From contig PNKH01000052.1 in the NCBI GenBank assembly GCA_013822345.1, positions 1-51,900 of the forward strand: a DNA stretch of 51,900 bases. Reading direction: 5' to 3'. Position 1 is the stretch's first letter, and each line of letters starts with the position of its first letter. Shown here piece after piece: positions 74-44,558 of this stretch. The notes under the pieces are model-generated. The model worked only from the letters and a program-made list of their open reading frames with translations. It had not been told where the DNA came from and searched no databases. This stretch comes from Isosphaera sp. GTDB taxonomy: Bacteria > Planctomycetota > Planctomycetia > Gemmatales > Gemmataceae. The translations under genes and the position numbers were made by a program.

Positions 74-2257
74 CTACCCCGCCCCGTCCGCCTCCTCCCA
101 CACGCTCCGGTACGCCCCGGTCGCCTCGAAGTGCGTCAGCATCCGGGCGTAGAACGGGTGGTTCGACAGGGTCGCGCTGTCGCCGATCACCGTCAGGCTG
201 CGGCGCGCGCGGGTCAGGGCGACGTTCGTCCGCCGCACGTCGCCCAGGAACCCGATCCCGCCCTCCGGGTTCGACCGCACCAGCGACACCACCACCGCCT
301 CCTTCTCCCGCCCCTGGAACCCGTCCACGCTGTCGACCTCCAGCCCGTCCACGTCGGCGAGCAGTTCGCGCAGGTGCCGCACCTGCGCCCGGTACGGCGT
401 GATGACCCCGACCTGCCCGGCCGTCAGCCCGGCGGCGAGCAGCTGCCGCACCACCCGCGCCGCCAACCCCGCCTCCTGGACGTTCCGCCGGCTGCCGGTG
501 TCCTCCTCCAACTCCTCGTCGTACCCGGCCCCGGCGGTGTCGACGAACCGCACCGGCGTCTCGGTCAGCGGCTCGGCCCGCACCCCGGGGAGGTCGCACA
601 ACCGGTGACCGGCGACCGACTCGTGGGCGACCAACTCCCCGCCGTAGAACTCGGCGTTCGAGAAGCCCATGATCGCCGCGTGCATCCGGTGCTGGACCGT
701 CAGCAGCCGGGCACAGTCCGGGCCGAGCAAGGCGACGAGTCGTTCCATCAGGCTGACCGACAACCCCTGCTCCGCGGCCTCCTGTGACAGGACGGTCGGC
801 GGGAGTTGGCAGTGGTCGCCGGCGAGGACGACGCGGTCCGCCCGGAGCAGCGGGAGCCAGCACGCCGGCTCCGTCGCCTGGCACGCCTCGTCCAGCACCG
901 CCAGGGCGAACCGCCGCCGGCCGAGCACCTGGCTGTCGAGCCCGGTGAGCGTGGCGCACACCACCCTGGCCTCGTCGAGCACCCGCTCGACCGCCAACGC
1001 TTCGAGTCGCCGCACCTCGCCGAGCATCTCGCGGGCCTCCTTGCGGAGCGCCGCCTTCTCGCCGGGCTGCGGCTTCTCCTTCGTCCACTTGTCGGCCCGC
1101 CGGAACAGGGCGAACGCCTCCTTCGCCAACTTCCGGGCCTGGCGGGCGTCCGGGTGCTTTTCGGCGAGCAGGTCGACGGCCCGGGCGCGGAGGTCCGGGG
1201 CGACCCGCGCCGGGTGGCCGAGCCGCACCGGCAGTTCCCCCGCCGCGAGCAGCTTCTCCAGCAGGTTGTCGACGGCGTGGTTGCTCGGGGCGCACGCCAG
1301 CACCGCCTCGCCGCGGGCCATCGCCTGCCGGATCAGCTCGACAACCGTCGTCGTCTTCCCGGTGCCGGGCGGGCCGTGGACGATGGCCACGTCCTTCGCC
1401 GCCAGGCACAGCTCGACGGCCGCGACCTGCGGCGGGTTGAGGTTCCCAAGGGAGGGCGAGGCTCCCGCCGAGCCGCTGATGTCCGGCTCGGCGGGAGCCT
1501 CGCCCTCCCGGTCGGCGAACCCCGGCGGCGTCTCCCCGAGCAGCACCGCCCGCAGCTCCGCCAACCGGTCGCCGGCCGCCGCCGCGACGCGCCGCAAGCC
1601 GTCCTGCTGCCGCAGCCGCGACACCTCGTCCGGCGACAGGTCGAGCCGCCACGCCGCGTCGTCCGGCAACTCGTCGTCCGGCGGGTCGATGGCCACGCCG
1701 ATCGAGGCGGCGTCGCGGTCGTACACCACCCCGCGGTACGCCGGCACCCGGCGGTTGACGTTCGTCTGCGTGAGCACGACGGGAGACCCCGGCTGCAGCC
1801 GGGTCGGCGGGAGGGGGTCGCGGGTCTTGCGGGTGAAGGTGAGGAGGAGCCGGCCGCCGAGGCCGAACTCGGCGTCGCGGAGGGCCAGGCCGGTGAGGGT
1901 GGCGCCGTCGCCGAGCGGCGAGCCCTCCTCCGCGCGGGCGCGGCGGCGGGCGTCTTCCTCCTCGGCCTTCGCTTCGAGGTCGAGCAGCCGCGACAGCCGG
2001 CCGAAGTGGTCGGCGTCGGTGAAGTCGGCCTTGCCGGCGAACCGCACCCGGACCGGCTTGTCCCGGAACGTCGCCCCGTCGAGGGCGGCGACGAGCGCGG
2101 CCGCCTTCGCGTCCGGCACCTCGACCGTGGCCCCGCGGCCGACGAAGGCGATCTTCCCGACGTGCTTGCCGTCGAGTCCGCCGCGGGCGGCGACGAACCG
2201 GAGCACCTCGCCGGGCGGGCAGCGGAACGGGACCGGGTCGATGTGGAGGACGGCCAT
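74..2257 (-). CDS. Superfamily 1 (UPF1/IGHMBP2-like) helicase
   Basis: A 727-residue ATP-dependent nucleic-acid helicase. Visible motifs are Walker A GPPGTGKT near residue 293, the Walker B-like DEACQATEP near 453, QHRMH (motif IV region), GVITPYRAQV, and a C-terminal block with DSVDGFQGREKEAVVVS (motif V) and TNVALTRAR (motif VI). This order is that of the UPF1/SMUBP2 (IGHMBP2) branch of SF1B; whether the substrate is DNA or RNA cannot be told from sequence. The first 200 residues hold a beta-rich N-terminal domain. An oddity is a 20-codon in-frame palindromic repeat at about residues 250-269, just before the first RecA domain (separate entry). The small gene upstream ends 19 nt before this start, so the two may be co-transcribed. 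Confidence 0.95.
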   Translation of the reverse strand: MAVLHIDPVPFRCPPGEVLRFVAARGGLDGKHVGKIAFVGRGATVEVPDAKAAALVAALDGATFRDKPVRVRFAGKADFTDADHFGRLSRLLDLEAKAEEEDARRRARAEEGSPLGDGATLTGLALRDAEFGLGGRLLLTFTRKTRDPLPPTRLQPGSPVVLTQTNVNRRVPAYRGVVYDRDAASIGVAIDPPDDELPDDAAWRLDLSPDEVSRLRQQDGLRRVAAAAGDRLAELRAVLLGETPPGFADREGEAPAEPDISGSAGASPSLGNLNPPQVAAVELCLAAKDVAIVHGPPGTGKTTTVVELIRQAMARGEAVLACAPSNHAVDNLLEKLLAAGELPVRLGHPARVAPDLRARAVDLLAEKHPDARQARKLAKEAFALFRRADKWTKEKPQPGEKAALRKEAREMLGEVRRLEALAVERVLDEARVVCATLTGLDSQVLGRRRFALAVLDEACQATEPACWLPLLRADRVVLAGDHCQLPPTVLSQEAAEQGLSVSLMERLVALLGPDCARLLTVQHRMHAAIMGFSNAEFYGGELVAHESVAGHRLCDLPGVRAEPLTETPVRFVDTAGAGYDEELEEDTGSRRNVQEAGLAARVVRQLLAAGLTAGQVGVITPYRAQVRHLRELLADVDGLEVDSVDGFQGREKEAVVVSLVRSNPEGGIGFLGDVRRTNVALTRARRSLTVIGDSATLSNHPFYARMLTHFEATGAYRSVWEEADGAG
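1450..1509. repeat. 60-bp palindromic element inside the helicase gene (family A)
   Basis: Two perfectly complementary 26-bp arms (1450-1475 and 1484-1509) flank an 8-nt loop. The total of 60 bp is a multiple of three, so the helicase frame is kept and the element encodes a REGEAPAEP...SGSAGASPS peptide. A second copy of the same family is intergenic at 26709-26787. The element sits in a linker between domains, where an insertion would be tolerated. Confidence 0.95.
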
Positions 2258-5920: not shown

Positions 5921-6041
5921 GACGGTAGCCAGGGGTGGAGCGCAGCGCAACCCCTGGCGGCCTGCGGAGACAACCCCCGGCCCGCCGACGCCCGCCAGGG
6001 GTTGCGCTCGCCTGCGGCTCGCTCCACCCCTGGCTACCGTC
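5921..6041. repeat. Compound palindrome downstream of pyrC (family E)
   Basis: Outer arms 5921-5942 and 6020-6041 (22 bp) and inner arms 5944-5960 and 5992-6008 (17 bp) are perfectly complementary, giving a nested cruciform. The sequence shares GACGGTAGCCAGGGGTGGAG and CGCAACCCCTGGCGG with the element at 41829-42014. It occupies most of the 277-nt gap between pyrC and the POTRA gene, and I see no gene in that gap. Confidence 0.9.
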
Positions 6042-6159
6042 GGTCGCCGCTCCGCGGCTGAACACCGGCCGGGCAAGTCCCGACCTCGGGTTGCCGGCCG
6101 CCCGCGCGGCGGGGTAGCATCCGGCCAGGACGGATTCACCCGCCACCCCGAGGCGAACC

Positions 6160-8445: not shown

Positions 8446-8537
8446 CGTAGGGTGCGTCGAGGCCCGCTACGGGCCGACGACGCACCACGCGCCGCCGGTG
8501 CGTCGTCGGCCCGTAGCGGGCCTCGACGCACCCTACG
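8446..8537. repeat. 41-bp-arm palindrome between convergent genes (family G)
   Basis: Perfect arms 8446-8486 and 8497-8537 with a 10-nt loop; the unit begins CGTAGGGTGCGTCGAGGCCC. It fills almost the whole gap between the DUF4058 gene (plus) and the lipoprotein gene (minus), so it could terminate transcription from both sides. Confidence 0.95.
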
Positions 8538-25245: not shown

Positions 25246-25310
25246 CCGGGTGGGGCAGGCATTCCTGCCTGCCCCGGCCGGCGGCAGGCAGGAATGCCTG
25301 CCCCACCCGG
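25246..25310. repeat. Palindrome with GGCAGGCATTCCTGCCTGCC core (family B)
   Basis: Perfect 28-bp arms (25246-25273, 25283-25310) around CCGGCCGGC. It fills the gap between the apbE gene and the membrane protein gene. A second copy of the family is at 34942-34999. Confidence 0.95.
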
Positions 25311-26652: not shown

Positions 26653-26787
26653 CCAGAATCGCGCGGTCCCTTCCCCGTCGCGTACGCCTCCTGGGACGCG
26701 GCGATTCTGGGAGGGCGAGGCTCCCGCCGAGCCGAGGGCGTCGCGGGGTCGGCCACGCCGGCGGCTCGGCAGGAGCCTCGCCCTCCC
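26653..26787. repeat. Nested palindrome (family A with an outer CCAGAATCGC pair)
   Basis: Inner arms 26709-26734 and 26762-26787 (26 bp, one mismatch) are the same family as the element inside the helicase gene. A further pair CCAGAATCGC (26653-26662) / GCGATTCTGG (26701-26710) overlaps the inner element. It occupies nearly all of the 166-nt gap between the aminotransferase and DUF4291 genes. Confidence 0.9.
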
Positions 26788-34919: not shown

Positions 34920-34941
34920 AACAAAACGCATCGTTCGCGGC

Positions 34942-34999
34942 GGTGGGGCAGGCATTCCTGCCTGCCACCGCCCGGGCAGGCAGGAATGCCTGCCCCACC
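34942..34999. repeat. Palindrome with GGCAGGCATTCCTGCCTGCC core (family B)
   Basis: Perfect 25-bp arms (34942-34966, 34975-34999) with an 8-nt loop, same family as 25246-25310. It lies just upstream of the conflict-operon promoter, within the 374-nt spacer between that operon and the divergent rbfA-like gene. Confidence 0.93.
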
Positions 35000-35076
35000 G
35001 GCCTGAGACGCGCCGCGAACCTCCCGCGCGGCCAGCGGTGTCCGTGCCACGCCCCAACCCGGAAGGGAGGTGACCC

Positions 35077-38755: not shown

Positions 38756-38830
38756 GGGCGCGGCGAGCCGGGAGCGTGAGCGACCGGAGGGGCTACCTCC
38801 GGTCGCTCACGCTCCCGGCTCGCCGCGCCC
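38756..38830. repeat. 35-bp-arm palindrome between convergent genes (family D)
   Basis: Perfect arms 38756-38790 and 38796-38830 with a 5-nt loop. The inner 28 bp (GGCGAGCCGGGAGCGTGAGC and on) are identical in type to the element at 44495-44558. It fills the gap between two convergent stop codons (38745, 38833). Confidence 0.95.
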
Positions 38831-41828: not shown

Positions 41829-42014
41829 AGCCCCGGAGGGGCTGCCGACGGTAGCCAGGGGTGGAGCGACGGCCCGCCCCGGGCCGGAGCGCAACCCCTG
41901 GCGGCGTACGGAGACAAGCCGGGGGTCCCGCCGACGCAGCCGGGATTCCGGCTACGCCGCCAGGGGTTGCGCTGCGCTCCACCCCTGGCTACCGTCGGCC
42001 GCCCCTCCGGGGCT
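41829..42014. repeat. 186-bp compound palindrome (family E)
   Basis: Outer arms (41829 onward and to 42014, AGCCCCGGAGGGGC...GGAGC, near-perfect over about 39 bp) and perfect inner arms 41889-41908 and 41953-41972 (20 bp). It shares both its outer and inner blocks with the element at 5921-6041. The gap between the FG-GAP and PQQ genes (41812-42025) is almost entirely this element. Confidence 0.92.
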
Positions 42015-44494: not shown

Positions 44495-44558
44495 GGCGAG
44501 CCGGGAGCGTGAGCGACCGGAGGACGTTTACTCCGGTCGCTCACGCTCCCGGCTCGCC
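44495..44558. repeat. 28-bp-arm palindrome (family D)
   Basis: Perfect arms 44495-44522 and 44531-44558 around GACGTTTA, same family as 38756-38830. It lies between the TPR gene stop (44567) and the FG-GAP gene start (44464), 30 nt upstream of the latter's ATG, so it would sit in the intercistronic RNA. Confidence 0.95.

Follow-up and report, generated by a model that had tools for sequence, protein, structure and literature searches.

Based on analyses of the window, the whole 51,900-nucleotide stretch of DNA studied here and one complete contig of the 226-contig, 7.47 Mb draft genome of Isosphaera sp. (G000), we find that a 60-bp palindrome within a helicase gene is a REPIN-like element, belonging to a dispersed repeat family linked to a REP-associated tyrosine transposase (RAYT). 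In related genomes the same protein linker is frequently occupied by hairpins of other repeat groups, and comparable recurrence is seen at one loop of UvrA and one loop of squalene-hopene cyclase. We consider it likely that REPINs copied by RAYTs scatter and that those landing in frame persist in a small number of permissive loops.

The arms of the element are 26 nt each and 100% complementary around an 8-nt loop, and the minus-strand frame of 727 codons runs through them without a stop, confirming the palindrome and its in-frame position in the helicase as described in a sequence-only reading of this DNA (Table 1). Its placement just before the first RecA domain is equally correct, Pfam AAA_11 beginning at residue 272, right after the element. 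In 200 codon shuffles of the linker region, no hairpin of this strength appeared; as RNA, the element has a predicted fold of -67.6 kcal/mol, while a single arm folded alone gives a weak, broken stem (-4.8 kcal/mol as DNA). The closest solved structure by sequence is SMUBP-2 (4b3f), and near relatives in named records come from Gemmata sp. IIL30, Gemmata sp. Bin_69_sub, a Gemmataceae isolate, Zavarzinella formosa and planctomycete MAGs. In an AlphaFold2 model built from 13 sequences (mean pLDDT 70.9, pTM 0.61), residues 250-270, between helices 231-239 and 275-286, fall below a pLDDT of 50, as do other stretches of the protein, e.g. 520-563; the model predicts that the insert forms a disordered link between folded helices. 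At the level of sequence, the suggestion that such elements can seed new protein linkers holds; the encoded linker is a predicted one, and we infer that the element is neutral in the helicase.

Table 1. Features in the window and in-gene copies of the repeat family at other loci of the source genome.
Feature	Position or locus	Strand	Details
SF1 helicase gene, IGHMBP2/SMUBP-2 family	74..2257	-	TIGR00376; Pfam AAA_11, AAA_12
REPIN-like element in helicase gene	1450..1509	-	60 bp; codes about residues 250-269, R-EGEAPAEPDISGSAGASPS
Left arm GGGAGGGCGAGGCTCCCGCCGAGCCG, REP-like unit	1450..1475	+	arm edges set by 148 aligned arms
Right arm, left-arm unit inverted	1484..1509	-	arm alignment
Intergenic member of the EGEAPAEP family	26709..26787	.	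79 bp
In-gene copy, UvrA	L052		after UvrA_inter 132-242
In-gene copy, DUF1549/DUF1553 protein	L087		
In-gene copy, squalene-hopene cyclase	L101		

The repeat, here called the EGEAPAEP family after the peptide read from its first arm, is abundant in the source genome. A 19-nt arm core with at most two mismatches matches 144 times on the forward and 144 times on the reverse strand (288 in total), against three and zero matches for the reversed-pattern control. In 60 stretches of the genome picked for holding the family, together with the window, we collected 79 elements: inverted pairs account for 69 and solo arms for 10. Alignment of their 148 arms shows sharp edges around 26 conserved positions, and the base just before the arm is C or T in 135 cases. 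A conserved GT[AG]G foot, sought from -6 to +8 at the arm edges, was present in only 43 of the 148, and the family is therefore not filed as a canonical GT[AG]G REP. According to gene calls from a home-made codon-usage model, 70 elements are intergenic, one lies over a gene end and eight, including the window copy, lie within predicted ORFs, an in-gene rate that describes a non-random sample chosen for containing the family. The earlier view that relatives of the element are otherwise intergenic is therefore nearly right, the gene-end copy and the in-ORF copies being the exceptions, and its example at 26709-26787 (36-nt arms, 89% complementary) is indeed intergenic. Predicted genes lie on either side of 68 intergenic elements; 55 of these are at most 60 bp from a stop codon and four sit between divergent genes. 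With the same gene calls, 321,520 bases of the genome, again from stretches picked for the family, contain 128 strong hairpins, 122 outside genes and six inside, although the 314 predicted genes cover 281,868 bases (88%). One of the six in-gene hairpins belongs to another family (L074, 1716-1779; 28-bp arms of the CACAACCGTCCTCGGTTGTGC type).

The earlier remark that one reading frame of the element is free of stops is incorrect: five of the six frames are open in the window copy, and when 69 paired copies are read on both strands, any one of the three frames lacks stops in 129-134 of 138 readings, so openness does not explain the frame choice. Seven of the eight in-ORF copies read the first arm as EGEAPAEP, for which a simple calculation with equal frames gives p ~0.008 (at least seven of eight alike); the five best-supported copies (the window copy, L052, L053, L087 and L088) all agree, with p ~0.01 if frames are equal. 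The eighth, L100, is a solo arm near an ORF end with another first-arm reading. The second arm is read as GSAGASPS in the window copy, L098 and L101, and as ARREPRPP in L052, L087 and L088, L053 being a solo arm. The EGEAPAEP frame is probably favoured because its product would be soluble and disordered, whereas the first arm yields arginine-rich peptides in its two other frames. A length in multiples of three was considered as the cause and rejected: 36 of 68 pairs of at least 54 bp are such multiples, and of the six in-gene pairs three measure 62 or 65 bp, lengths that cannot by themselves preserve the frame. Arm mismatches number 0, 0, 1, 0, 0 and 1 in these six pairs and average 0.74 in 62 others. 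Pfam domains flank or span the element in four genes, those of the helicase, UvrA, the DUF1549/DUF1553 protein and squalene-hopene cyclase.

The link to a transposase comes from two genomes. At G000:C40 (L076, also L118), a small RAYT-like gene has four arms before it and four after it; its two pieces, in different frames, score 29 and 47.7 bits against NF047646, the NCBIfam profile of REP-associated tyrosine transposases, below its cut-off of 80 bits. The break between the RAYT halves (L118, 1238-1707) may be a draft-assembly error. A relative in the genus, G007, carries an intact homologue (G007:C56, L119) that reaches 84.6 bits, is 62% identical to the G000 gene over the 69 residues searched and has seven EGEAPAEP-family arms in total, distributed over both sides. 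This protein contains HLH at 73-75, a WDYVVNNPV segment and a tyrosine in WDYVVNNPVRKGL that we take to be the catalytic one; it has no Pfam match up to E 0.1. A search of G000 with Pfam Y1_Tnp (PF01797) yielded five other Y1 genes that are not cognate, the cognate gene being found in the L076 arm cluster. At up to one mismatch, the 19 genomes of the genus hold 274 arms (G000), 50 (G007), nine (G010), eight (G018), one each in three and none in twelve; the two genomes with a close RAYT thus have most arms, and the arms of G010 and G018, which occur there without a close RAYT, count against copying by it. The 69-residue query finds matches in six of the 19 genomes, beyond G000 and G007 at 46% identity in G008, where the flanking repeat differs from the EGEAPAEP family, and at 32-43% in G003, G017 and G018. 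That the element can move or be copied, as earlier claimed, is supported by the dispersed, RAYT-linked family; copying by the cognate RAYT would account for the window element. The only close RAYT found in G000 is frame-broken, a point against present mobility in this genome.

Other palindrome families are present as well. Two other Y1 genes of G000 (L039 and L041) have such families on both sides, and these recur in the window: palindromes GGGGCAGGCATTCCTGCCTGCC at 25246-25310 and 34941-35000, also found on both sides of the Y1/RAYT gene at G000:C14 (L041/L203), and the GCCAGGGGTTGCGCT family at 5944-6043 and 41854-41976, which flanks the L039 transposase gene. By eye, the helicase linker of L177 carries an in-frame repeat related to the GCCAGGGGTTGCGCT family. 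The window further contains 35-bp and 28-bp perfect palindromes GGCGAGCCGGGAGCGTGAGCGACCGGAG (38756-38830 and 44495-44558) and, at 8446-8537, 41-bp perfect arms starting CGTAGGGTGCGTC with a 10-nt loop and GTAG near the edge.

The helicase protein was matched in 17 of the 19 genomes of the genus. Hairpins unmatched by any of 200 codon shuffles occur in 11 of 15 genus linkers, the window's own included, the remaining four being L010, L011, L014 and L019. Among these, L010 and L014 encode family-like peptides and their best hairpins were matched by 21 and three of 200 shuffles, that of L014 extending well beyond the linker; in L019 and L011 no element was recognised, and the linkers measure 16 and 22 residues. 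More distant relatives have linkers of 16-30 residues (16-19 in seven of the eight measured) and no hairpin beyond shuffles; five non-genus loci lacking the linker anchor (L111, L112, L113, L114 and L117) were read by eye with no shuffle test. L116 is partial, and L023 (G006) was left out of the count for having its halves in different frames. In this G006 helicase (L023/L027) the linker element sits at a frame break with a stop, possibly a failed insertion or a MAG error.

The sequence-only reading had named a clean insertion missing from relatives as support for recent insertion. The peptide is indeed absent from the 14 other genus helicases with a measured linker; their linkers are mostly filled, however, 10 of the 14 carrying other hairpins, and an orthologous segment with ordinary divergence was rejected since the linkers differ in kind between relatives. 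Visual inspection sorts the hairpins into about six groups, namely the EGEAPAEP family, AGGVSP/GGLRPPLA (AGG), SQESGVR, LAGEG, LAASP and C/G-run, and the tree places different groups on closely related genomes, for example G090 versus G091 and G017 versus G005. In a second genus, inserts were seen by eye, with no shuffle test, in four of six linkers (L176, L177, L178 and L180, not L104 and L179). Across the helicases, arm separation ranges from 8 to 171 nt. Entry points vary from directly after LLG (L015) to about 16 residues after it (L022), and one fixed insertion point was hence rejected. Single clean elements occupy the linkers of L009 and L015, and composites with several arms and long spacers those of L020, L021, L022 and L024. 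This recurrence suggests a spot that is unusually tolerant of insertions. The AGG family is dispersed too, with 66 arms in G018, 218 in G017, 114 in G008 and 117 in G092. In L236, L237, L134, L136, L015 and L022 two frames are used for its 5' arm, giving AGGVSP or SGGRKPP/SGGRKSP, and its 3' arm is read as GGLRPPLA or GGSRPPLA, in contrast to the EGEAPAEP family with its fixed 5' and variable 3' reading. No RAYT flanked on both sides by AGG, SQESGVR, LAGEG or C/G-run arms was found among 30 of 57 RAYT-profile loci and seven others; L198 has a single AGG arm, and the LAASP arm occurs on both sides of L208.

At the UvrA linker, five of 15 measured loci (L126-L140, partial or second-copy loci left out) contain strong hairpins from at least three groups, each with 0 of 200 shuffles, and ten contain none. 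One loop of squalene-hopene cyclase has strong hairpins, counted with no shuffle test, in six of 19 loci from three groups and none in 13; of these loci, L246 shows an apparent frame break at the loop and is a weak "none", and L240 a repeat-like peptide without a strong hairpin. Here the EGEAPAEP family is found in G000 and G007, each as a 20-residue insert, and the two copies may represent one event. The insert is clean, 20 residues or 60 nt against relatives with a short loop, and the loop falls within a single Pfam domain, away from any domain boundary. For the DUF1553 protein, the insert is absent in all 12 aligned orthologues, five of which have other short inserts; 12 of 19 other loci (L157-L175) could be aligned, the match in the other seven ending before the site, and with one insert in 13 there is no recurrence at this loop. 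Given the low in-gene base rate, the other-species matches at one loop (10/14 in the helicase, 4/14 in UvrA and 5/18 in the cyclase) are far from random placement, with the qualification that the four genes were chosen for their G000 element and that shared ancestry inflates the counts.

In the mechanism we favour, the cognate RAYT, an HUH/Y1 transposase, would have copied the element via single-stranded DNA into the helicase gene. Insertions would be widespread, with those out of frame or in ordered regions purged; such purging is what the rarity of in-gene copies in the hairpin census would reflect. The few tolerant loops, putatively the helicase linker, the UvrA linker after the interaction domain and a helix-helix loop of squalene-hopene cyclase, would then be refilled repeatedly, in each lineage by the REP family that is active there. 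The cause of the same-loop recurrence may be tolerance, a landing-pad effect or a selected hairpin. The landing-pad reading refines the tolerance explanation and does not oppose it: once a first insertion has lengthened the linker, later ones would enter or replace it free of cost, and turnover would be fast. We regard it as a real possibility, though short of probable, with the composite linkers and the different groups on close relatives in its favour; the single clean elements of L009 and L015 are at odds with it, and with the present data it is inseparable from simple tolerance.

That the hairpins themselves are selected, as mRNA or DNA structures between domains which, e.g., slow the ribosome while the first domain folds and which any REP family can supply, is unlikely. 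Long, often perfect hairpins do recur at one place in three genes, the RNA fold of the window element is stable and in-gene arms are at least as perfect as others, but recent insertion accounts for arm perfection equally well, arm separation in the helicases spans the whole range given above, the cyclase loop is at no domain boundary, and 4/15 helicases, 10/15 UvrAs and 13/19 cyclases have no significant hairpin, which marks it as dispensable. A target-site preference of the RAYT for these loci, independent of the protein, could be read from the C or T that usually precedes the arm, but is very unlikely in view of the differing entry points in the helicase linker and the different repeat families that enter it. 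An origin of the palindrome in place by mutation, or as an assembly artefact, is extremely improbable: the element does lie 1.45 kb from a contig end in a draft assembly, yet near-identical copies occur across the genome, and analogous inserts are found at the same place in relatives, some on very long contigs. It is doubtful, though conceivable, that Gemmata proteins share a few insertion-tolerant loops refilled by unrelated REPIN families perhaps because the hairpin is useful, e.g. as a translation pause, with REPINs acting as a natural, genome-wide screen for insertion tolerance.

So far, most accounts of in-frame REPs have dealt with single genes. Three proteins that each have one loop taken by several REP groups across a genus provide a natural measure of loop tolerance for ~20-80 extra residues, and the recurrence opens to testing the question of whether such hairpins have a use or are just tolerated. 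In addition, a planctomycete REPIN family without the usual foot is linked to its transposase.

REPIN/RAYT systems comprise inverted REP doublets in a hairpin, in high copy and mostly extragenic, with repeats flanking the transposase and one repeat family per transposase (PMC3116915; PMC6006769). The repeat family described here shares these features with such systems, and differs in lacking a conserved GT[AG]G foot, as do REP classes 2.6 and 3 (PMC6006769), in its planctomycete host and in its in-gene copies in recurrent loops. Rickettsia palindromic elements, palindromic and mobile-looking, likewise lie in frame in conserved proteins and are apparently tolerated; in the description of PMC2229807 they are 105-146 bp long and Rickettsia-specific, and host and length set them apart from the element reported here, which is 60 bp long, has perfect arms and shares its genome with a RAYT. 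In subclass 2.4, REPs occur in frame inside tnpA-REP genes, in peripheral flexible regions, where flexible linkers or loops may tolerate them (PMC6006769); those insertions are in the transposase gene and ours in host genes. In the open-access literature searched, we found no paper on REPs inside Gemmata genes, on a Gemmata repeat family of this type, or on several groups repeatedly entering one loop, as seen here in three of four genes. A further parallel is provided by GTAG/CGTC REPs: conserved genes, among them uvrA and helicases, carry them in frame, and different REPs occupy about one site in recB of two Xanthomonas species (PMC3733652); their placement is resembled by the intergenic bias toward stop codons seen here. 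In-frame palindromes or REPs and one same-site case are hence already known, and the multi-family recurrence extends them: in the genus studied here the repeat sequence differs from that in PMC3733652, and at least three to about six groups per loop are found across the genus in three of the four genes tested.
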